Assembly (NCBI RefSeq): GCF_024397855.1
Contig: NZ_CP073343.1
Location: 4,030,001-4,094,000, forward strand
Source: Marinomonas rhizomae
GTDB lineage: Bacteria; Pseudomonadota; Gammaproteobacteria; Pseudomonadales; Marinomonadaceae
Direction of reading: 5' to 3'
DNA length: 64,000 bases
The notes under the pieces were generated by a model. It worked only from the letters and a program-made list of their open reading frames with translations. It did no database searches and was not told the origin of the DNA. The position numbers and the translations under genes are program-made. Within the stretch, counting starts at the first letter, position 1. Each line of letters begins with the position of its first letter. Positions 10,191 to 46,526 of this stretch are shown piece by piece.

Positions 10191-13088
<2,898 letters not shown>

Positions 13089-13370: not shown

Positions 13371-14909
<1,539 letters not shown>

Positions 14910-15116
14910 AAAAAGTTTGCTTACTCAAAATCTATTACACTAACAATAACTTAATCATTCCATCGTCCCGAAGAACAACAAAACAACATAAAGCGAATTG
15001 ACGTGTTAGACGTTTCGCAAGACTTCAATTTTTTTGATCATCTCGAACCGGTTAAAAACCAATCCGGACAATCTTCTGAAGCCTCCAGCGAGCGCCCACA
15101 CAAATTATCTGATTAT

Positions 15117-37277: not shown

Positions 37278-38642
37278 TCAAAACCCATAGCGCTCGATTT
37301 TCTTAATCAAGCCTTGTCGTGAAATACCCAGTTGCTTGGCGGCTTGAGTGCGGTTGCCTTGGCTTTTTTCTAAGGCTTGGGTAATTAGTCGAATTTCAAG
37401 GTCTCTAACTTGTTCATCTAACGTCGCATCGGTTGTTGTTACGCTTGTCATAGCGTGATGAACTGGTTCACCGCTGGGGTAAAGCAGCTGAATGTCTTCC
37501 ATGGTAATTTGCCCTTGCGGACAAATAGACGCGACGCTTTCCAGCGCATTCTTCAATTCCCGAACATTACCGGGCCATGTTTGATCTCTGAACCATTTCA
37601 CAGCTTCAGGACTGAGCTGTAATTGCTTAGTTTGCTGACTTTGCAAGCGCTGTAGAAATGACTGTAGTAACACAGGAACATCTTCGAGTCGCTCCGACAG
37701 CGCTTGGGTTTCAATATTGACGCCTTTAATGCGGTAATACAGATCCTCTCGGAAGCTGCCTTCGCGAACCTTCTCAACTAAATCGGCATTGGTCGCAGAG
37801 ATCACTCGAATGTCGATGTGCTTCTGCTCTCGTCCTCCAACAGGAAAGAAGGTACCTTCCTGCAACACCCGCAGCAACTTGACCTGCATGGCTAATGGCA
37901 TTTCGCCGATTTCATCCAAAAACAAGGTACCGCTATCGGCCAAACTCAATAAACCGACTTTGTCTTTTTCCGCCCCAGTAAAGGCGCCTTTCACGTAACC
38001 GAACAACTCGCTTTCTAATAAATCCGCCGGAATCGCGCCGCAATGCACAGAAACAAACGGCTTGGCTGCGCGATGACTCAAGTCATGCAAGGTACGAGAA
38101 ATGACCTCTTTGCCTGTACCCGATGGCCCAGTCACTAAGACCCGTACATCCGTCGGCGCAATTCGCTCCACCAGCGCCCTGACCTTTTGCGAACTCATCG
38201 AATGACCGATATACGCAGACGCACCTTGAGCGGATCCACTCACTTGTTTTAACTGAGTTAATTCACGTTCTAAGGTGGTTTTGGTGATGGCTCGGCGCAC
38301 TACAACCGCTAACATATCTGGGTCAATCGGCTTAGCAATAAAATCCCATGCGCCAAGCTCGATGGCTTTTAAGGCCAAGTCTCGATCGGCGTGGCCTGTG
38401 ATAATAATCACTGGGCGGCCAGCGAATTCATCCATAGCCTCCAAGGTCACTTGTGGATCAAAATGCGGTGGCATTGATAAATCCAATAACACCAAGTCTG
38501 CATCAAATTCCGCTAAAGCCGATTTGGCTTCGGCTAAACTCGCCGCCGTTTTCACATGGTAATCTTGGTTGGCTAACCAACGGCTCGCCAATTCACGAAA
38601 TGCGGGTTCGTCATCAACCAGTAATATTTTATTTTGTGTCAT
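37278..38642 (-). CDS. Sigma-54-dependent response regulator (NtrC family)
   Basis: 454 residues. Receiver domain with phospho-acceptor Asp54 (LVLLDLSMPP), AAA+ domain with Walker A GPSGTGKEV, the sigma-54 contact loop GAFTGA, Walker B LFLDEIGEM, and a C-terminal Fis-type HTH (RTQAAKQLGISRQGLIKKIE). All key residues are present, so it should activate RpoN promoters when phosphorylated. The start at 38642 overlaps the kinase 3' end by 14 nt. A sigma-54 promoter and paired palindromes lie just upstream of the kinase gene, before the divergent oxidase operon. Confidence 0.95.
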   Translation of the reverse strand: MTQNKILLVDDEPAFRELASRWLANQDYHVKTAASLAEAKSALAEFDADLVLLDLSMPPHFDPQVTLEAMDEFAGRPVIIITGHADRDLALKAIELGAWDFIAKPIDPDMLAVVVRRAITKTTLERELTQLKQVSGSAQGASAYIGHSMSSQKVRALVERIAPTDVRVLVTGPSGTGKEVISRTLHDLSHRAAKPFVSVHCGAIPADLLESELFGYVKGAFTGAEKDKVGLLSLADSGTLFLDEIGEMPLAMQVKLLRVLQEGTFFPVGGREQKHIDIRVISATNADLVEKVREGSFREDLYYRIKGVNIETQALSERLEDVPVLLQSFLQRLQSQQTKQLQLSPEAVKWFRDQTWPGNVRELKNALESVASICPQGQITMEDIQLLYPSGEPVHHAMTSVTTTDATLDEQVRDLEIRLITQALEKSQGNRTQAAKQLGISRQGLIKKIERYGF

Positions 38643-40545
38643 GGAATTCTCTATTTGAAAGCGCTGCGCCAGAAAAATGGCGAGGTAAAATAAGTTCAAA
38701 CGTCACCGGCCAAGCCAAATCAGAGCGGTGCCAAATCTTGCCACCATGGGCATCAACAATACGGCGCACAATGGCTAAACCAAGACCACTGCCGCCCGCT
38801 CGCTTAGTCACAAAGGGTTGAAACAAGGCTTCACCTTGTAAGCTTACATCGATTGCTGGTCCGTTGTTGTGGACGCGAATCACAAGCTGTTGGCCCTCTT
38901 CTTTGGCTTCAATAAACAACTTGCTATCGGGCGTGGAGCGTAAAAAAGACACGGCATTATCAATCAGGTTGATGAACACCTGCTGCAACCGTTGCGAGTC
39001 TGCCTCCAGCTCCAGCGTTTCCTCTATATCAAGCTCATAACTCACGCCTTCAAGCTGAGCTTGTGCCAATACGCTTGCAACCAATGATCGCAATGGCGTG
39101 GCAACAATTTGCAATGACAACCCACCTGAATACACCAACATGTCGCTCACTAAACGGTCGGCTCGCTTAAGCTGAGTCTGTATATGCTGGCGCGTATCCA
39201 CAGGCGCGTCATAAGCGGCCATGGAAATAATATTGAGCGGATTACGCAACTCGTGGGCCATTGCTGCTGACAAGCTGCCTAACTCAACCAAATGCTGTTC
39301 ATCCATGCGTTTTCGTTCCGCCACCGCCAAGGCCAACGACCTTTCCAACAAACCGCAGCTGGTCGTGAATAAAGACGCAAACACTTCCGCCGTAAGACGC
39401 ATACCTGGGCTGGCATCTTCCCAACCAATTAATACAAAGTGCCAATCAGACTCCGATCGAGACACCTGTATAGCCAACGCGTTATTCTGCCCTTTTACCG
39501 GATAGTCGCCATGTTGCAATTGAATCGCTACATTTTGTCTTATTTGTCGCGAAAGTAACTGCTCACCAACATTCGTCAATTCTGCCCAACCCCGAGCCTC
39601 TCTCAATTGTGTTGACCAAGTATCTAACACAGCTTCATTTAATAAAGCACCGGGGTAAATAAGCCGAGAAACCAGACGACTTAGAGGCTGATAAATCACC
39701 GCCGCAACCACCAAAATCAGCAAGGAATACAACCAGAGTTGCCAACTGGGTACATTGGCCAGCGCCTGCAAACCAATACGACCAGACACCACGCTGATGA
39801 CCGCGATCACACAGAGAATCACCAACATCATGGCAACCCAAAGCAAGGCCCGATTGGCAAAGGCATTAACCGACAAAATTTGATAGCGAACTACCGCATA
39901 AACCAACAATAGCAAATAGGTTGGCAGTAAGAGCATGGGATAGGGAAACCAGCTAATGCCAAAGGAAGGAAACACAAAACTGGTCGCTAACAACAAGCCC
40001 CAAGCGCCAACGCCAAACATGGCGAGAATGGAGCGTTTCTTATTACCAGAATGTCGATACCAACCAAACAACAACACCCCATGAGCCAAGATGCCGATCA
40101 ACACCGTATAGGCAAGATTCCATGTCCCCGCCTCGGTAAAGATAAAAAAGGAACGCGTGTCTAGCGTACTGATCGCATCTCCAGCGCCAATCCACCAGCT
40201 TTGTAATACCACAGCAAAACTGGTCAGATAAAACCAAGGCACTACTTGATATAAGCGTTCCAGCATAGGCTCTTTAACCGAGCCAGAGTTCACAAAACGA
40301 ATCGCAAAATGTAAGAAGAAGGTCGGCATCAACGGGTTGGCCAGAATGATATGAATACCAATTTGCTCGTAGCCTTGGAACAAGACCACATGCCCAAAGC
40401 ACCAAATCGCCATCATAATGGCAAAACCTGCCAGAGCTTGTAGATCACTTTGTTTTCTAGCTCGCCACAATAACCAGACCGCGACCAATACGCCGCACAC
40501 ACTGGTCACCAACATGGCCACTTCAAACATCAGGGAAAGTGTCAA
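38629..40545 (-). CDS. Multi-pass membrane sensor histidine kinase
   Basis: 638 residues from a TTG start that has GAGG 9 nt upstream; an ATG five codons later (40530) lacks a ribosome-binding site. About seven to eight membrane helices (8-28, 37-55, 66-85, 102-120, 142-162, 172-192, 200-220, 232-290) precede a GAF-like linker, then HisKA with His431 in AAMAHELRNPLN and a HATPase with GGSGLGLAIV. The layout resembles PrsK-type kinases. Partner of the overlapping NtrC-type regulator. A membrane-buried sensor beside a quinol oxidase operon suggests sensing of membrane redox state; inference. Confidence 0.9.
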   Translation of the reverse strand: MTLSLMFEVAMLVTSVCGVLVAVWLLWRARKQSDLQALAGFAIMMAIWCFGHVVLFQGYEQIGIHIILANPLMPTFFLHFAIRFVNSGSVKEPMLERLYQVVPWFYLTSFAVVLQSWWIGAGDAISTLDTRSFFIFTEAGTWNLAYTVLIGILAHGVLLFGWYRHSGNKKRSILAMFGVGAWGLLLATSFVFPSFGISWFPYPMLLLPTYLLLLVYAVVRYQILSVNAFANRALLWVAMMLVILCVIAVISVVSGRIGLQALANVPSWQLWLYSLLILVVAAVIYQPLSRLVSRLIYPGALLNEAVLDTWSTQLREARGWAELTNVGEQLLSRQIRQNVAIQLQHGDYPVKGQNNALAIQVSRSESDWHFVLIGWEDASPGMRLTAEVFASLFTTSCGLLERSLALAVAERKRMDEQHLVELGSLSAAMAHELRNPLNIISMAAYDAPVDTRQHIQTQLKRADRLVSDMLVYSGGLSLQIVATPLRSLVASVLAQAQLEGVSYELDIEETLELEADSQRLQQVFINLIDNAVSFLRSTPDSKLFIEAKEEGQQLVIRVHNNGPAIDVSLQGEALFQPFVTKRAGGSGLGLAIVRRIVDAHGGKIWHRSDLAWPVTFELILPRHFSGAALSNREFHDTK

Positions 40546-40549
40546 AATC

Positions 40550-40598
40550 GTAAACCTCGTTTACACCTAAAAGTGAGAAAATCGTAAACCTTTTTTAC
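40550..40598. promoter_or_regulatory. Tandem palindromes, candidate activator sites
   Basis: GTAAACCTCGTTTAC (40550-40564, perfect GTAAAC-N3-GTTTAC) and GTAAACCTTTTTTAC (40584-40598, one mismatch) are embedded in a larger direct repeat AAAATCGTAAACCT, with centres 34 bp apart, about three helical turns. They are about 95 and 130 bp upstream of the predicted start of the oxidase operon, normal distances for an NtrC-type activator. They also overlap the kinase gene's leader and ribosome-binding site, which would allow self-regulation. Confidence 0.7.
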
Positions 40599-40657
40599 AC
40601 TTCACGCAAAGACGAAAATTTTTCCTTTAAAATCAACAGTATAAATTTAACTAATAG

Positions 40658-40674
40658 TTGGCCTGTCCCTTGCT
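40658..40674 (+). promoter_or_regulatory. Sigma-54 promoter of the cio operon
   Basis: TTGGCCTGTCCCTTGCT matches the RpoN consensus YTGGCACGN4TTGCW with GG (40660-40661) and GC (40672-40673) exactly 10 bp apart; only the A and C of GCAC differ. Expected start near 40684. Confidence 0.75.
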
Positions 40675-40689
40675 ATAGGTAAAGCAAGC

Positions 40690-40703
40690 TTGATCTAAAT
40701 CAA
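40690..40703 (+). promoter_or_regulatory. FNR/ANR box
   Basis: TTGATCTAAATCAA is a perfect TTGAT-N4-ATCAA site. Centred at about +12 relative to the predicted sigma-54 start, so it should block, not help, transcription when oxygen is low. ANR repression of cio is known in Pseudomonas aeruginosa. Confidence 0.8.
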
Positions 40704-40731
40704 ACAATTTTCAAATGACAGGACAAACATC

Positions 40732-40848
40732 ATGAATGCTGGCTTTTTAATGACCGAAATCATCGCGCTTTTTAGCATTGTGGGCTTAGCCCTATTGCCT
40801 CTAGCGTTGCAACAAATGCGTGCTCAACGCGTTAAGAACAATTCCTAA
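40732..40848 (+). CDS. 38-aa single-helix membrane peptide before cioA
   Basis: Begins MNAGFLMTEIIALFSIV and ends with the basic tail QQMRAQRVKNNS: one membrane helix (about 4-26) with the positive end predicted inside. AGGA lies 8 nt before the ATG. The stop is 28 bp before cioA, and it lies after the predicted sigma-54 start, so it is the first gene of the operon. Possibly an assembly or accessory subunit like CydX, but it is on the opposite side of the operon from the known small subunit. Not recognised. Confidence 0.65.
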   Translation: MNAGFLMTEIIALFSIVGLALLPLALQQMRAQRVKNNS

Positions 40849-40876
40849 GTCCATCTTATTTTAAACGGGAGTTGCC

Positions 40877-42331
40877 ATGGACCTCGATGTCGCCATTTTA
40901 TCTCGCATACAGTTCGCCTTTACGGTGAGCTTTCATATTATTTTCCCTAGTATCACCATTGGTTTGGCGACACTGATCGCCATTTGGGAAGGCATGTGGC
41001 TAAAAACACATAATCCTTATTACCTCCAATTGGCTAAATTCTGGATCAAACCTTTTGCGATAACCTTCGGTATGGGGGTGGTTTCTGGCATCGTTTTGTC
41101 CTATGAATTTGGCACCAACTTCTCCAAATTTTCGGAGATTACTGGCGCGGTACTTGGGCCGCTGATGGCTTACGAAGTGCTCACCGCTTTCTTCATGGAA
41201 GCCGGTTTCCTTGGCGTCATGCTATTTGGTTGGCAACGCGTTGGTCGCAAGCTGCATTTCTTCGCCACTGTCACCGTTATGATAGGTACTTGGATTTCAG
41301 CGTTTTGGATCATAGTGGCGAACTCATGGATGCAAACACCAACGGGCTACAAGATTATCGATGGCAAGTTTGAAGTAGAAAGCTGGATGGCGGTGATCTT
41401 CAATCCATCCATGCCTTATCGCCTCACTCACATGGTGGTGGCGTCATTAATTACAGCAACCTTCGTGGTAGCAGGCATCAGCGCCTATTATTTATTGAAA
41501 AAGAAAAACATTCCTTTTGCTAAAAAAGGCTTATCTATGTGCATGTGGTTTGCTTTGGTGTTAACACCGCTGCAAGCATGGATTGGCGATATGCATGGCT
41601 TAAACGTAAGAGAGCATCAGCCCACTAAATTGGCAGCGATGGAAGGCATTTGGCCTGCCGAAGAAGAAAACGTTCCGCTCTTGTTATTTGCTATGCCCAA
41701 CATGGAGACCGAATCCAACGATTATCAAGTCGGTATTCCAAACCTAGGCAGCTTGATCCTAACTCACTCTTGGGATGGCACGGTGCAAGGTCTAAAAGCG
41801 GTACCGCCTGAAGACAGACCGAATGTGCCGTTAGTGTTTTGGTCTTTCCGTGTCATGGTTGGTATTGGAGTTGGCATGATGGGCATTGCTGCGCTAGCCC
41901 TCCTACTGCGTCGTAAAGGACGCTTGTATGAGAACAAAGCGTTTCTGTCTCTCGTAACATTATTTACCCCTATGGGTGTCATTGCGGTACTGGCAGGTTG
42001 GTATGTGGTCGAAATCGGTCGCCAGCCTTGGATTGTTTATAATCTGGTTAGAACGTCCGAGATCGTATCGCCACTTCCAGCGGAACGAGTGCTCTTTACC
42101 TTAACCATGTTTGTCATCATTTACAGTCTGCTGATCGGTGTTTATCTCTACTTCATGCGCAAGCTGATTAAGAAAGGGCCGCCATCAATGGAAGCGCTAG
42201 AACAACAACTGATTGGCATGAAAGCGCCGGGCTATGCATTGGCTTGGGTAAAATCGCTAACAACGAAAGAACAGCAATTAAAAGAACAGCAAGCAAACGA
42301 TCAACCTTCACAAGCACAAGGAGATAAATGA
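40877..42331 (+). CDS. cioA: Cyanide-insensitive bd-type quinol oxidase subunit I
   Basis: 484 residues. Oxidises quinol and reduces O2 at haems b558, b595 and d in the inner membrane. Haem-ligand His is in VSFHIIFPS, the family motif GRQPWIVY is near residue 385, and there are about nine helices. The Q-loop is short and WMQTPTGYK is seen, both typical of the CIO branch and not of E. coli CydA. GGGAG lies 5 nt before the ATG. Operon with cioB and a DUF2474-like subunit. Confidence 0.95.
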   Translation: MDLDVAILSRIQFAFTVSFHIIFPSITIGLATLIAIWEGMWLKTHNPYYLQLAKFWIKPFAITFGMGVVSGIVLSYEFGTNFSKFSEITGAVLGPLMAYEVLTAFFMEAGFLGVMLFGWQRVGRKLHFFATVTVMIGTWISAFWIIVANSWMQTPTGYKIIDGKFEVESWMAVIFNPSMPYRLTHMVVASLITATFVVAGISAYYLLKKKNIPFAKKGLSMCMWFALVLTPLQAWIGDMHGLNVREHQPTKLAAMEGIWPAEEENVPLLLFAMPNMETESNDYQVGIPNLGSLILTHSWDGTVQGLKAVPPEDRPNVPLVFWSFRVMVGIGVGMMGIAALALLLRRKGRLYENKAFLSLVTLFTPMGVIAVLAGWYVVEIGRQPWIVYNLVRTSEIVSPLPAERVLFTLTMFVIIYSLLIGVYLYFMRKLIKKGPPSMEALEQQLIGMKAPGYALAWVKSLTTKEQQLKEQQANDQPSQAQGDK

Positions 42332-43341
42332 TGGATTTGGCTTTTTTCTACTTCCTTGTCTTAGGCTTTGCCATCTTTATGTACGTGCTACTCGATGGCT
42401 TCGACCTAGGGATTGGCATTCTCTACCCTTGGTTTAACCAAGAAGGCGAGCGTGATCATTTAATGCGTTCTATTTCACACGTTTGGGATGGCAACGAAAC
42501 TTGGTTAGTGTTTGGTGGTGTGGTGTTGTTTGCGGCGTTTCCCACCGCTTATGCAGGCATTACTTCGACTTTTTATCTGCCTATTATGCTGATGCTGTTT
42601 GCGTTGATCTTTCGTGGTGTGGCGTTCGAGTATCGGTTTAAGTCCGATACGTCTCGACCTTATTGGGATTTCGCCTTTAGTGCGGGTTCGGCTATCGCTG
42701 CGTTTTGCCAAGGCATGTTACTAGGATCGATTGTTCAAGGCGTACCAGTCGGTGTCGATAGCTTGTCTAGCCTACACTGGCTAACGCCCTTTTCTATCCT
42801 AACAGGCTTTTCTGTAATGGCAGGTTATGCCTTGCTAGCCGCTTGCTATCTGTTTATGAAAAGTCGCGGCCGCATTCAAGAGCACGCGGCAAAATTAGGT
42901 AAAAGACTTTTACTAATCACTATTTTAGCCATGGTCATCGTCAGCCTGTGGACGGTGGCTAACCAAGTAGACATTCGTCAACGTTGGTTCTCTGGCTTAA
43001 ATTTCTTGTGGTTATCGCCCTTGCCTATCATCACCTTAGTGGTTGCATTGTTGGCTTGGAAAGATCTAAACAGTCACGCCACAGGAACCGTTCACCATGA
43101 AAGTCGACCATTTTGGTATGCTGCCACCTTGTTTTTATTAGGCTTCGCGGGTCTTGTGGTCGGCTTGTTCCCTTATCTAATACCAAGACAATTAACCTTT
43201 ATGGAAGCCGCATCGCCTGACAGTAGCTTGCTCTTCTTGCTGCCTGGTATTTGCATCTTCGTGCCATTGATCTGCGCTTATACTTTATGGGGCTACCGTG
43301 TTTTTGCAGGCAAGGTGGAAGATTATCAGGAGGGTTACTAA
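42328..43341 (+). CDS. cioB: Cyanide-insensitive bd-type quinol oxidase subunit II
   Basis: 337 residues, about eight helices. MYVLLDGFDLGIGILYPW and HVWDGNETWLVFGGVVLFAAFP are the CydB/CioB signatures. Overlaps cioA by 4 nt (ATGA) and has AAGGAG upstream, so translation is coupled. An alternative ATG is the very next codon. Forms the heterodimer with CioA. Confidence 0.95.
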   Translation: MMDLAFFYFLVLGFAIFMYVLLDGFDLGIGILYPWFNQEGERDHLMRSISHVWDGNETWLVFGGVVLFAAFPTAYAGITSTFYLPIMLMLFALIFRGVAFEYRFKSDTSRPYWDFAFSAGSAIAAFCQGMLLGSIVQGVPVGVDSLSSLHWLTPFSILTGFSVMAGYALLAACYLFMKSRGRIQEHAAKLGKRLLLITILAMVIVSLWTVANQVDIRQRWFSGLNFLWLSPLPIITLVVALLAWKDLNSHATGTVHHESRPFWYAATLFLLGFAGLVVGLFPYLIPRQLTFMEAASPDSSLLFLLPGICIFVPLICAYTLWGYRVFAGKVEDYQEGY

Positions 43342-43478
43342 TGTCTCTAAAAAGCCTGAAAGAAAAAGCCGCCAAACTCAAATCGTGGCAATGGTTTTTG
43401 CTGCTGTACGGCATCGGTTTTATTGCAGTATTAACCGCATCTTATGGAATTAAACTGCTAATGACAGGGTTGCCTTGA
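43341..43478 (+). CDS. DUF2474/CydX-like small oxidase subunit
   Basis: 45 residues: a basic amphipathic start (MSLKSLKEKAAKLKSWQW) and one membrane helix (FLLLYGIGFIAVLTASYGI). DUF2474 proteins follow cioAB in many proteobacteria and occupy the role of CydX, which stabilises the haem-d site. Its ATG shares a base with the cioB stop (TAATG) and has AGGAGG upstream. Last gene before a strong terminator. Confidence 0.85.
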   Translation: MSLKSLKEKAAKLKSWQWFLLLYGIGFIAVLTASYGIKLLMTGLP

Positions 43479-43570: not shown

Positions 43571-45523
43571 TTACACTTTAGCCGCTTTAAGCGTATCAGT
43601 TTTCGCGCCCATGCTCGCTTTCACAAGCAAAACGGCAAACACCACCACACCCAATACTCGCGCACTGACCACGAACAAGGAAGTGTCCGTAGCAGCCGCA
43701 GGCCAAGCAATAAGTACCGCGGCAACAACATATAGTAAACGAGTTACCCAAGATAAATTCTCACGTAACCAGCCAGAAAAGCCGATGCTCATCGATGCTG
43801 TTGCCAGGGTAGCAAACAAGATCGCTGCGATCACACTCGCCGTTGTCCCAATCAATAAAATCCCCGGCATGGTCACGAATAAGAACGGAACCAAAAGCTT
43901 AACAAAACCTAGTCGCATGGATTCAACGGCCGTTTCATTCGGTTCGGCACCAGAAATTGTCGCCGCCGCGTAAGCTGCTAATGCAACAGGTGGAGTAATG
44001 GCAGACACTAAACCAAAGTAGAAAATGAACATGTGCGCCGACAGGGTTTCCATACCAAGTTGTGTCATCGCAGGCGCAACCAATACCGCGAGTAACAAAT
44101 ACGCCGCTGATGTTGGTAATCCCATACCCAAAACAAAAGACGCCAATGCGGTGAGTAATAAGACGGCCCATAAATTGCCATCACCCAGTTCAATAATCAA
44201 ACCAGACAACATCAAGCCCATACCGGTCAAATTCAGAATACCGATAATCACGCCAGCGGCTGCAACAGCCGCTACAATCGGTAGCGTCGAAGACAAGGTT
44301 TCCTTACAAGCCGCAATCAAATCGACCACATTTATACGAGTGGCTTTTTTCCAAGGACAAACGAGCAAACCAGCCAAGATCCCCATAACGGCCGCTTGGG
44401 TTGGTGATTTACCTGAAATCATTAGACCGATCAAAACCACCAGCGGAAGCAAAAGATAGCTCTTTGTTCTCAGCGTTCTTAATAACAATTGTAAGCCCGC
44501 TTCGGTATCCCTTTCTAAATTAAGGCGTCCAGCTTCTAGGCGTACTGAAATCATCAACGCCAAAATATACAAAAGTGCGGGAACCAAGGCGGCCATTGCG
44601 ACTTCGGCATAAGGAATCCCAATCATTTCTGCCATCAAGAAAGCAGCAGCCCCCATAACCGGTGGCATAATTTGCCCCGCCGAAGACGCAGCGGCTTCGA
44701 TCGCTCCAGCCAGTTTTGCGCTGTAGCCCACGCGTTTCATCAACGGAATAGTAAAAGTACCTGTGGTCACTACGTTGGCCACAGCGCTGCCATTAAGGGA
44801 GCCAAGCAATGCGCTAGACAAAGCCGCAGATAAGCCAGGGCCACCTTGTACACGTCCAGTCAAACCACGGGCCAAATCAACAAAAACCTCGCCCGTACCA
44901 ATTTTAGTTAAAATGGCACCAAACAAGCCGAATAGGAAAATATACTCAACGGCGACCCCCATTGGCACACCATAAACCCCTTCAGTCGATAACATCAGAG
45001 TTGACGTCAGACGGCTTAGATCATAGCCACCATGACCATATTTACCAGGGATCAAATAGCCAAAATACGCATAAAGAAAAGCGAGGGTCATTAAAATAAT
45101 CAACGCCCTACCTACCGCAATACGGACAAAGACAAACACCACCACAATCAGAACAATAAAGATCAACCTATCTTGCTCAACCGACATAGCGCCGCGCATG
45201 ACAATATCAATGTAGTAATGCCACAAGTAAGGCCCCGGAATTAGAGCCAATAGGGCCAATAGATAAAACACACCACGGCCCATGGCACTCTTGTATCTTA
45301 GCGCGTAAAACAGCATGGCAGCCCCCGCAACTAAAGAGAAAAACGACGATCTCAATAGCAACGCGGTAATTCCTCCATAATACGCACCATACAGCACAAG
45401 ACCGGCGATTCCAGCGGCGATCACACTAAACAATAAAGAGACTGCTAGACGTTCCTTGCCACCAGCGAATTTTGATTCAAGGAGCAAACTTTGAAAGCCA
45501 TTGCTGGAATCTGAGTTCAACAT
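43571..45523 (-). CDS. TRAP transporter fused permease (TAXI type)
   Basis: 650 residues with about 16-18 helices. The small (DctQ) and large (DctM) domains are fused, as usual for TAXI systems: four early helices, then the large domain with GLPTSAAYLLLAVLVAPAM and GAILTKIGTGEVFVDLARGLTG. Drives Na+-coupled uptake of organic acids delivered by the binding protein at 45534-46472. AGGAG lies 7 nt before the ATG. Substrate not deducible; glutamate, 2-oxoglutarate and other acids are known for the family. Confidence 0.93.
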   Translation of the reverse strand: MLNSDSSNGFQSLLLESKFAGGKERLAVSLLFSVIAAGIAGLVLYGAYYGGITALLLRSSFFSLVAGAAMLFYALRYKSAMGRGVFYLLALLALIPGPYLWHYYIDIVMRGAMSVEQDRLIFIVLIVVVFVFVRIAVGRALIILMTLAFLYAYFGYLIPGKYGHGGYDLSRLTSTLMLSTEGVYGVPMGVAVEYIFLFGLFGAILTKIGTGEVFVDLARGLTGRVQGGPGLSAALSSALLGSLNGSAVANVVTTGTFTIPLMKRVGYSAKLAGAIEAAASSAGQIMPPVMGAAAFLMAEMIGIPYAEVAMAALVPALLYILALMISVRLEAGRLNLERDTEAGLQLLLRTLRTKSYLLLPLVVLIGLMISGKSPTQAAVMGILAGLLVCPWKKATRINVVDLIAACKETLSSTLPIVAAVAAAGVIIGILNLTGMGLMLSGLIIELGDGNLWAVLLLTALASFVLGMGLPTSAAYLLLAVLVAPAMTQLGMETLSAHMFIFYFGLVSAITPPVALAAYAAATISGAEPNETAVESMRLGFVKLLVPFLFVTMPGILLIGTTASVIAAILFATLATASMSIGFSGWLRENLSWVTRLLYVVAAVLIAWPAAATDTSLFVVSARVLGVVVFAVLLVKASMGAKTDTLKAAKV

Positions 45524-45533
45524 AATGGATCTC

Positions 45534-46472
45534 CTAGTTTGCGCTTACTTCGTCATAATATTTTTTCGCGCCTGGGTGCAATGCAACAGGAGTGTGTTTT
45601 GCGGTTTCTAACGAAATTGCTTTTGCCTGTGGGTGAATTTGACCTAGCTCATCTAAATGAGAAAAAATCGCTTTGGTGATGTTGTAAATTTTGCTCTGAT
45701 CTTCTTTACCGCTTGTGAACAAAATAGCAGGATCATTAATCATCAAAACCTGTTTGGTTTGATCTGGGTAGGTTCCAGCAGGCAGAGAGTAAGCTTGGTA
45801 GAAAGGGTATTTTTGGATCAAACTATCGAGTTTATTAATATCAGCCGACAACAATTTCATGTCGGTTTGTGAGTCGAGATCAATCAAAGAGGAAGTCGGA
45901 GCACCTGCCAAAACCACTGTCGCATCAACTTGGCCGTTTACCAAGGCTTTTACCCCTTCGTTATAAGAAAGAAAACGTGGTGTGATATCGTCAAAGACAC
46001 CATATTCCTGTAACAAACGAGTTGCTAAAACCGCGGCATTACTTCCTGGAGGCCCCATGCTGACACGTTTGCCTTTCAAGCCTTCAAAGGAGTCGACTCC
46101 TTTTCCGGAAATCGTTGCGACCTGCAGCACTGCTGGATATAAATAAGCAATACCAGCCACGTCCAAAGGCCCGCTTACTTTAAATGGGCCTTGGCCATTT
46201 TTTGCTTCAAACAAAGTTGAAGAAGAAGATAATCCCATTGTCATTTGGCCCGCTGCAACGCGGTGATTGTTTTCCACAGACGCACCCGTTACTTCAGCTC
46301 GTGCCGTCGTATTGTCCATGTGTTTATTTAGAGTTTCAGAAATCCCTGCGCCAATCACATAAAACAAGCCGCCCGTTCCACCAGTTCCAATGGATACACG
46401 TTCTGCCGCTTGAACAGGGCTATTAATTAAAGTCGCACACAAGGCACTCGCTATAAGCAGTTTTTTAAACAT
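45534..46472 (-). CDS. TAXI-family TRAP solute-binding protein
   Basis: 312 residues. Signal peptide (MFKKLLIASALCATLINSPVQA, cleaved about residue 22), then VSIGTGGTGGLFYVIGAGIS, the defining TAXI motif. Start at 46472 (GGAG 6 nt upstream); the longer frame starts with TTG. Ten bp before the fused permease, so one operon. An 11-bp tandem repeat 55-76 nt upstream of the start codon is a probable response-regulator site. Confidence 0.93.
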   Translation of the reverse strand: MFKKLLIASALCATLINSPVQAAERVSIGTGGTGGLFYVIGAGISETLNKHMDNTTARAEVTGASVENNHRVAAGQMTMGLSSSSTLFEAKNGQGPFKVSGPLDVAGIAYLYPAVLQVATISGKGVDSFEGLKGKRVSMGPPGSNAAVLATRLLQEYGVFDDITPRFLSYNEGVKALVNGQVDATVVLAGAPTSSLIDLDSQTDMKLLSADINKLDSLIQKYPFYQAYSLPAGTYPDQTKQVLMINDPAILFTSGKEDQSKIYNITKAIFSHLDELGQIHPQAKAISLETAKHTPVALHPGAKKYYDEVSAN

Positions 46473-46526
46473 AGTATTCTCCAACTTATTTTTGTTTTGT
46501 TATTGCTTAGAACACTCTAGCGAGGA

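Follow-up and report, generated by a model that had tools for sequence, protein, structure and literature searches.

The window analyzed here, a stretch of 64,000 nucleotides from the genome of Marinomonas rhizomae (assembly GCF_024397855.1, contig NZ_CP073343.1, positions 4,030,001 to 4,094,000), contains genes for the two subunits of a cytochrome bd oxidase, cioA and cioB, and, divergent from these, genes for a histidine kinase and a response regulator (Table 1). The HisKA_7TM region is located at the N-terminus of the kinase, whose start residue is common to most of 10 aligned orthologues, and the ATG of the regulator gene (38642) overlaps the 3′ end of the kinase gene. The regulator shows the architecture of an NtrC-type protein, namely a REC domain with a phospho-acceptor Asp, an AAA+ domain, and a Fis-type HTH, and its D55 (the phospho-acceptor Asp), K105, and GAFTGA motif were invariant in 11 aligned regulators. 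An initial annotation of this DNA had described a kinase and an NtrC-type regulator with a GAFTGA loop transcribed divergently from the oxidase operon, and this description was confirmed.

Table 1 Genes and putative control elements of the cio locus, with positions numbered from the first nucleotide of the window
Feature	Position	Strand	Remarks
NtrC-type response regulator	37278–38642	−	REC, AAA+ with GAFTGA, Fis-type HTH; Pfam PF00072, PF00158, PF25601, PF02954
Histidine kinase	38629–40545	−	HisKA_7TM, HisKA (H431), HATPase_c; PF16927, PF00512, PF02518 above cut-off; TTG start
Upstream palindrome 1, GTAAACCTCGTTTAC	40550–40564		12/12 palindrome positions; predicted regulator site
Upstream palindrome 2, GTAAACCTTTTTTAC	40584–40598		11/12 palindrome positions; predicted regulator site
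IHF-like site, AATCAACAGTATA	40631–40643	+	8/9 match; centre −48
Putative sigma-54 promoter, TTGGCCTGTCCCTTGCT	40658–40674	+	11/13 consensus positions; GG 40660–40661, N10, GC 40672–40673
FNR/ANR box, TTGATCTAAATCAA	40690–40703		10/10 FNR positions; centre +12.5
Small ORF, 38 amino acids	40732–40848	+	Opens the operon, before cioA; contains one hydrophobic stretch
cioA, cytochrome bd subunit I, short Q-loop	40877–42331	+	PF01654, 566 bits
cioB, cytochrome bd subunit II	42328–43341	+	PF02322, 312 bits

CioA is approximately 60 residues shorter than its counterpart in E. coli bd-II near residue 310, in the Q-loop, and the presence of bd subunits I and II with a short Q-loop assigns the oxidase to the CIO type at the gene level. 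The oxidase is presumably cyanide insensitive, its name being taken from the short-Q-loop class. An ORF related to the 38–amino acid ORF that opens the operon was detected in 62 of 67 upstream regions by means of a profile derived from 10 such sequences. A second hydrophobic ORF, of 45 amino acids (43341–43478), overlaps the stop codon of cioB (TAATG) and occupies a cydZ-like position. Neither small ORF gave a Pfam match at E ≤ 1, and identity with CydZ (DUF2474, PF10617) was ruled out for both. According to the accessible part of a published account, CydX, CydY, and CydZ are encoded after cydB (PMC4325964), whereas the 38–amino acid ORF precedes cioA. A TRAP-TAXI transporter gene encoding a fused permease and binding protein (43571–46484) immediately follows cioB on the other strand.

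The region between the kinase gene and the oxidase operon had been annotated initially as containing two palindromes, a sigma-54 promoter with correct GG-N10-GC spacing, and a perfect FNR/ANR site just after the predicted start, and all of these elements are present in the order given and correct to the base. The palindromes are of the GTAAAC-N3-(G/T)TTTAC type and are 34 bp apart, with palindrome 1 overlapping the likely ribosome-binding site of the kinase. The putative promoter combines GG-N10-GC at −24/−12 with TGGCAC/TTGC-like elements and predicts a transcription start at 40685, and the box that follows conforms to TTGAT-N4-ATCAA. In the genome of M. rhizomae itself, the sigma-54 core-binding domain has a single match (rpoN), and an FNR-like protein that carries a Cys cluster (CX2CX5C) at its N-terminus is encoded. 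A simple consensus scan of positions 40500–40900 detected no sigma-70–like site, with 0.9 expected in shuffled sequences.

We searched 143 genomes, comprising 48 of the genus Marinomonas (that of M. rhizomae included) and 95 of the order. An orthologue of the kinase (at least 41% identity) was found in 47 of them (43 from Marinomonas and 4 from the rest of the order), and CioA of at least 60% identity was found in exactly the same 47. The kinase is in two pieces in one genome (G017) and its gene carries one in-frame stop in each of three others (G022, G028, and G053), and CioA of G011 is in two pieces. The five Marinomonas genomes without the kinase also lack CioA of at least 60% identity; four carry only an ordinary CydA (36–37%), and one also carries a CioA of 53%. 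A split cioA reading, reflecting either a broken gene or a sequencing error, occurs at L044 and L106 (Marinomonas pontica).

The kinase-regulator pair is divergent to cioA-cioB in all 46 fetched loci other than the window. A named collection returned 80 loci, and the same arrangement was present in 42 of 42 gammaproteobacterial loci with a kinase of at least 40% identity, which represent about 13 genera and partly overlap the genomes of the 46-locus set with regard to Marinomonas. The genera are Marinomonas, Oceanobacter, Oceanospirillum, Rheinheimera, Oceanisphaera, Zobellella, Oceanimonas, Marinobacterium, Pokkaliibacter, Mangrovitalea, Hahella, and Zooshikella, together with metagenome-assembled genomes (MAGs), one of them named Algicola. 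Six further loci of the 80 encode a nearly full-length kinase homologue (31–35%) and lack cioAB in the fetched stretch, and the other 32 match little beyond the kinase domain. A class-wide search (369 genomes, E ≤ 1e−60, best three candidates per genome) returned only the genome of M. rhizomae, a weak negative result that is overruled by the named loci. A search for the arrangement among Marinomonas relatives, suggested with the initial annotation as a check, was positive. In Oceanobacter sp. (L109) and Oceanospirillum linum (L111), the kinase is 78–82% identical to that of the window and the FNR box is at the Marinomonas-type position; horizontal transfer of the whole module is possible in these two cases.

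To describe the upstream regions quantitatively, we defined a module as two palindromes of at least 9/12 positions, 32–37 bp apart, followed at 60–130 bp by a sigma-54 site of at least 9/13 with GG-N10-GC or GT. The pooled set of 67 regions comprised the window, the 46 fetched loci, and 20 of the 42 named gammaproteobacterial loci, the Marinomonas loci being left out together with L136 and L140, which repeat genomes already counted (L136 = L077, L140 = L075). With these thresholds, which were chosen after the motifs had been seen in the pooled regions, the module was present in 64 of the 67 orthologous regions, a count that does not represent independent events given that the sampled genomes are related, and in none of 13,400 dinucleotide-preserving shuffles of the first 600 bases of each region. 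A single palindrome of at least 11/12 occurred in 0.1% of shuffles, whereas a sigma-54 site of at least 9/13 alone occurred in 12%, so that it is the combination and its conservation that count. The spacing between palindromes was 33–36 bp in all 64 modules, and that from palindrome 2 to the sigma-54 site was 74–79 bp in 61 of them and longer in three (88, 110, and 123 bp). GT replaces GC at −12 in two modules (L075 and L076), and the sigma-54 sites of four Rheinheimera regions match at only 9/13 positions. The three regions without a scored module (L070, L071, and L074) are all from Marinomonas and contain readable palindromes 42 bp apart. A chance match of the motifs is ruled out by the shuffles and the conservation.

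The palindromes have been assigned to the neighboring regulator by prediction from sequence, and they might instead belong to another regulator, with the adjacent pair controlling something else. The M. rhizomae genome does contain, in addition to the two cio sites, 23 single GTAAAC-N3-GTTTAC sites at no more than one mismatch, one of which (L190) lies 145 bp before a sigma-54–like sequence. A reversed control pattern yielded 12 sites, however, so that there is no clear excess of palindrome-like sites, and none of the 23 has the paired module. Eight of them share one recurring sequence, the copy of which inside the window lies in 16S rRNA (the minus-strand 16S rRNA gene occupies 13371–14910, and the first part of a 23S match covers 13000–13087). 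The palindromes also co-occur with the kinase-regulator pair, and the module was absent upstream of all 20 CIO-type genes away from the kinase that were inspected, these being the best-scoring 20 of 42 matches at no more than 56% identity and including second cio copies in four Marinomonas genomes that bear the module elsewhere (G005, G023, G040, and G041). Assignment of the palindromes to a different regulator is thus very improbable. The module was likewise absent at the other bd oxidase locus of M. rhizomae (L001), and with none at the 23 other sites, no target other than the cio promoter was apparent at this stringency; a wider regulon in this genome was rejected on this basis. The RpoN-driven, regulator-gated control proposed in the initial annotation remains a prediction, now strongly supported by the shared distribution of kinase and CioA, the divergent synteny, the module spacing, the single rpoN match, and the absence of the module from the 20 CIO-type genes not linked to the kinase.

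Two further elements recur in the upstream regions. An IHF-like site at −48/−49 was found in 35 of 43 Marinomonas regions (2.0% of shuffles) and in 11 of the 24 regions from other genera (0.7%), and was not found in the remaining 8 and 13, respectively. In 37 of 43 Marinomonas regions versus 0.5% of shuffles, an FNR box of at least 9/10 follows the predicted start by no more than 40 bp, and a box of the same quality was present at approximately −57 in 11 of the 24 other regions versus 0.3% of shuffles. At a threshold of at least 8/10, these numbers rose to 41 of 43 and, at approximately −57, 14 of 24; two of the 24, those of Oceanobacter and Oceanospirillum linum, have the box at the Marinomonas position, and no box was found at either position in 2 of the 43 and 8 of the 24. 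The centre of the box lies between +11.5 and +25.5 in Marinomonas and these two near kin. An FNR input thus appears to have been kept in many lineages but to have moved.

Such movement might indicate that FNR activates or fine-tunes the promoter, with the −57 box activating or bending and the Marinomonas box being a separate invention, and the variation in position among lineages is in keeping with this notion. A box located just downstream of the start, however, normally blocks transcription by FNR/CRP-type regulators, and we know of no mechanism by which FNR activates sigma-54 polymerase. Moreover, in the four regions that carry both the −57 box and the IHF-like site (L129, L132, L134, and L137), the IHF-like site begins on the right half of the box, an overlap that fits interference. 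We therefore regard activation or fine-tuning by FNR as doubtful. FNR would more plausibly repress, either by blocking the promoter where the box follows the start or by competing with DNA bending where it lies at −57. The low-oxygen repression envisaged in the initial annotation finds support at the level of sites, in the boxes that are widespread in Marinomonas and in the FNR-like protein encoded in the genome, with repression through the box kept as a prediction.

Taken together, the genes, the sites, their spacings, and their co-inheritance make it highly likely, in our judgment, that the locus encodes a dedicated two-component, sigma-54–dependent on-switch for a short-Q-loop (CIO-type) bd oxidase that is damped by FNR/ANR without oxygen. 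Promoters of the NtrC/sigma-54 family are closed and are opened only by an active regulator. We infer that the 7TM membrane kinase would detect a membrane or respiratory signal and phosphorylate its NtrC-type partner, oligomers of which would bind the two palindromes. A bend introduced by IHF at approximately −48 would bring the regulator to sigma-54 polymerase at the −24/−12 site, and ATP hydrolysis would then open the promoter, with consequent production of the small ORF, cioA, and cioB. FNR/ANR would damp the promoter without oxygen from a box either after the start (Marinomonas) or at approximately −57 (many other genera). The regulator probably restricts expression of its own operon as well, given the position of palindrome 1 over the start of the kinase.

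To gain insight into the input of the switch, we aligned 66 cio-linked kinases, with L074 left out because it is read in two frames and with in-frame stops written as X. H52, N70, N143, and H155 were invariant in all 66. In six beta- and deltaproteobacterial homologues, position 52 is Q in all six, the position of N143 is P or V in all six, that of N70 is G or S, and H155 is replaced by Y in four and retained in two, both delta. The gene neighborhoods of these homologues also differ. In Undibacterium (L149, 3265–4781), the genes divergent from the homologous pair (kinase identity of 34%) encode a fatty-acid desaturase (PF00487) and a small membrane protein, and in Massilia (L141), the divergent gene resembles a desaturase by eye. 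A −24/−12–like site faces away from the kinase at four beta loci (L141 to L143 and L149), and none of the four has paired GTAAAC palindromes. The Undibacterium-type pair might possibly exert sigma-54 control over lipid desaturation. Two deltaproteobacterial MAGs (L144 and L145) encode the same type of kinase and regulator and contain the palindrome GTAAACCAAATTTAC. In both, two paired palindromes of the GTAAAC type and a sigma-54 site are oriented away from the kinase gene, and in L145 the sigma-54 site precedes an epimerase/DoxX_3 gene and DUF2269.

The conserved kinase residues and the beta and delta gene neighbors leave two main candidate inputs for the cio-linked kinase, the state of the membrane and that of the respiratory chain. 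The switch might respond not to respiratory poisoning but to the physical state of the membrane (cold or fluidity), in which case the kinase family would serve in membrane sensing generally and CIO would be one membrane output among several. The desaturase next to the Undibacterium pair, the desaturase-like gene in Massilia, and the outward-facing −24/−12–like sites at the four beta loci are in line with this possibility, as is the fact that CIO in Pseudomonas is cold induced. On the other hand, H52 and N143, which are present in every cio-linked kinase and absent from all six beta and delta homologues, hint at a different input, the beta loci lack the paired palindromes, and the Massilia gene was recognized by eye and not by family search. 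A membrane-state input for the cio switch is thus possible but rather unlikely. More speculatively, and with still less confidence, the 7TM kinase may sense respiratory-chain state within the membrane, as the quinol pool or as a heme- or metal-bound gas or poison, by way of H52, N143, N70, and H155, and would keep the sigma-54 promoter shut unless the main oxidases are blocked in the presence of oxygen, thereby restricting synthesis of the poison-resistant oxidase to such conditions.

With regard to known systems, NtrBC, ZraSR, and AtoSC share with the cio-linked pair the domain order, the GAFTGA motif, paired upstream sites, a −24/−12 promoter, and an intervening IHF-like site. The pair of the window, however, falls below the curated cut-offs of these named families, its predicted target is a terminal oxidase, and its kinase has a 7TM sensor. 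The best NCBIfam match of the regulator is PrsR of the PrsK/PrsR system (XrtA/PEP-CTERM; TIGR02916/TIGR02915), at 396.4 bits, but membership was ruled out by the respective cut-offs (396.4 versus 502.6 for the regulator, TIGR02915; 59.5 versus 300 for the kinase, TIGR02916), and the window pair differs in adjoining cioAB.

Control of bd and CIO oxidases as known so far involves oxygen regulators, redox two-component systems, or one-component repressors. CioAB of Pseudomonas is regulated by ANR and RoxSR. In Chromobacterium, as described in the available part of the report, CioAB is controlled by CioR, a one-component repressor of the GbsR/MarR family encoded within the operon, and other known bd regulators include CydE (GbsR type) and, in E. 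coli, ArcAB and Fnr (PMC11837568). The window resembles these Pseudomonas and Chromobacterium systems in that a CIO-type oxidase is under stress control, and it has an FNR/ANR box; it differs from CioR, as presented there, in its NtrC-type regulator, putative sigma-54 promoter, and divergent kinase. The cydA2B2 operon of C. necator is a weakly expressed bd operon whose expression confers gas tolerance and was raised by a point mutation predicted to create a sigma-70 promoter, and the sections of that paper available to us describe no sigma-54 control (PMC10164946). The accessible portion of another paper (PMC3162934) contains no mention of cytochrome or oxidase. Among the open-access matches listed, with subscription journals and preprints outside the scope, no title or opening of an abstract described a bd or CIO oxidase controlled by sigma-54 or RpoN. 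If the proposed switch is correct, a closed sigma-54 promoter with its own two-component pair would keep expression of a backup oxidase very low before induction and would gate it strictly. The locus is also small and transferable, which would suit it to finding the CIO signal, and sensor residues might be located by direct comparison of two branches of the kinase family, one linked to cio and the other to desaturase genes. Each part of the system is known in kind, and its combination on a terminal oxidase looks new.
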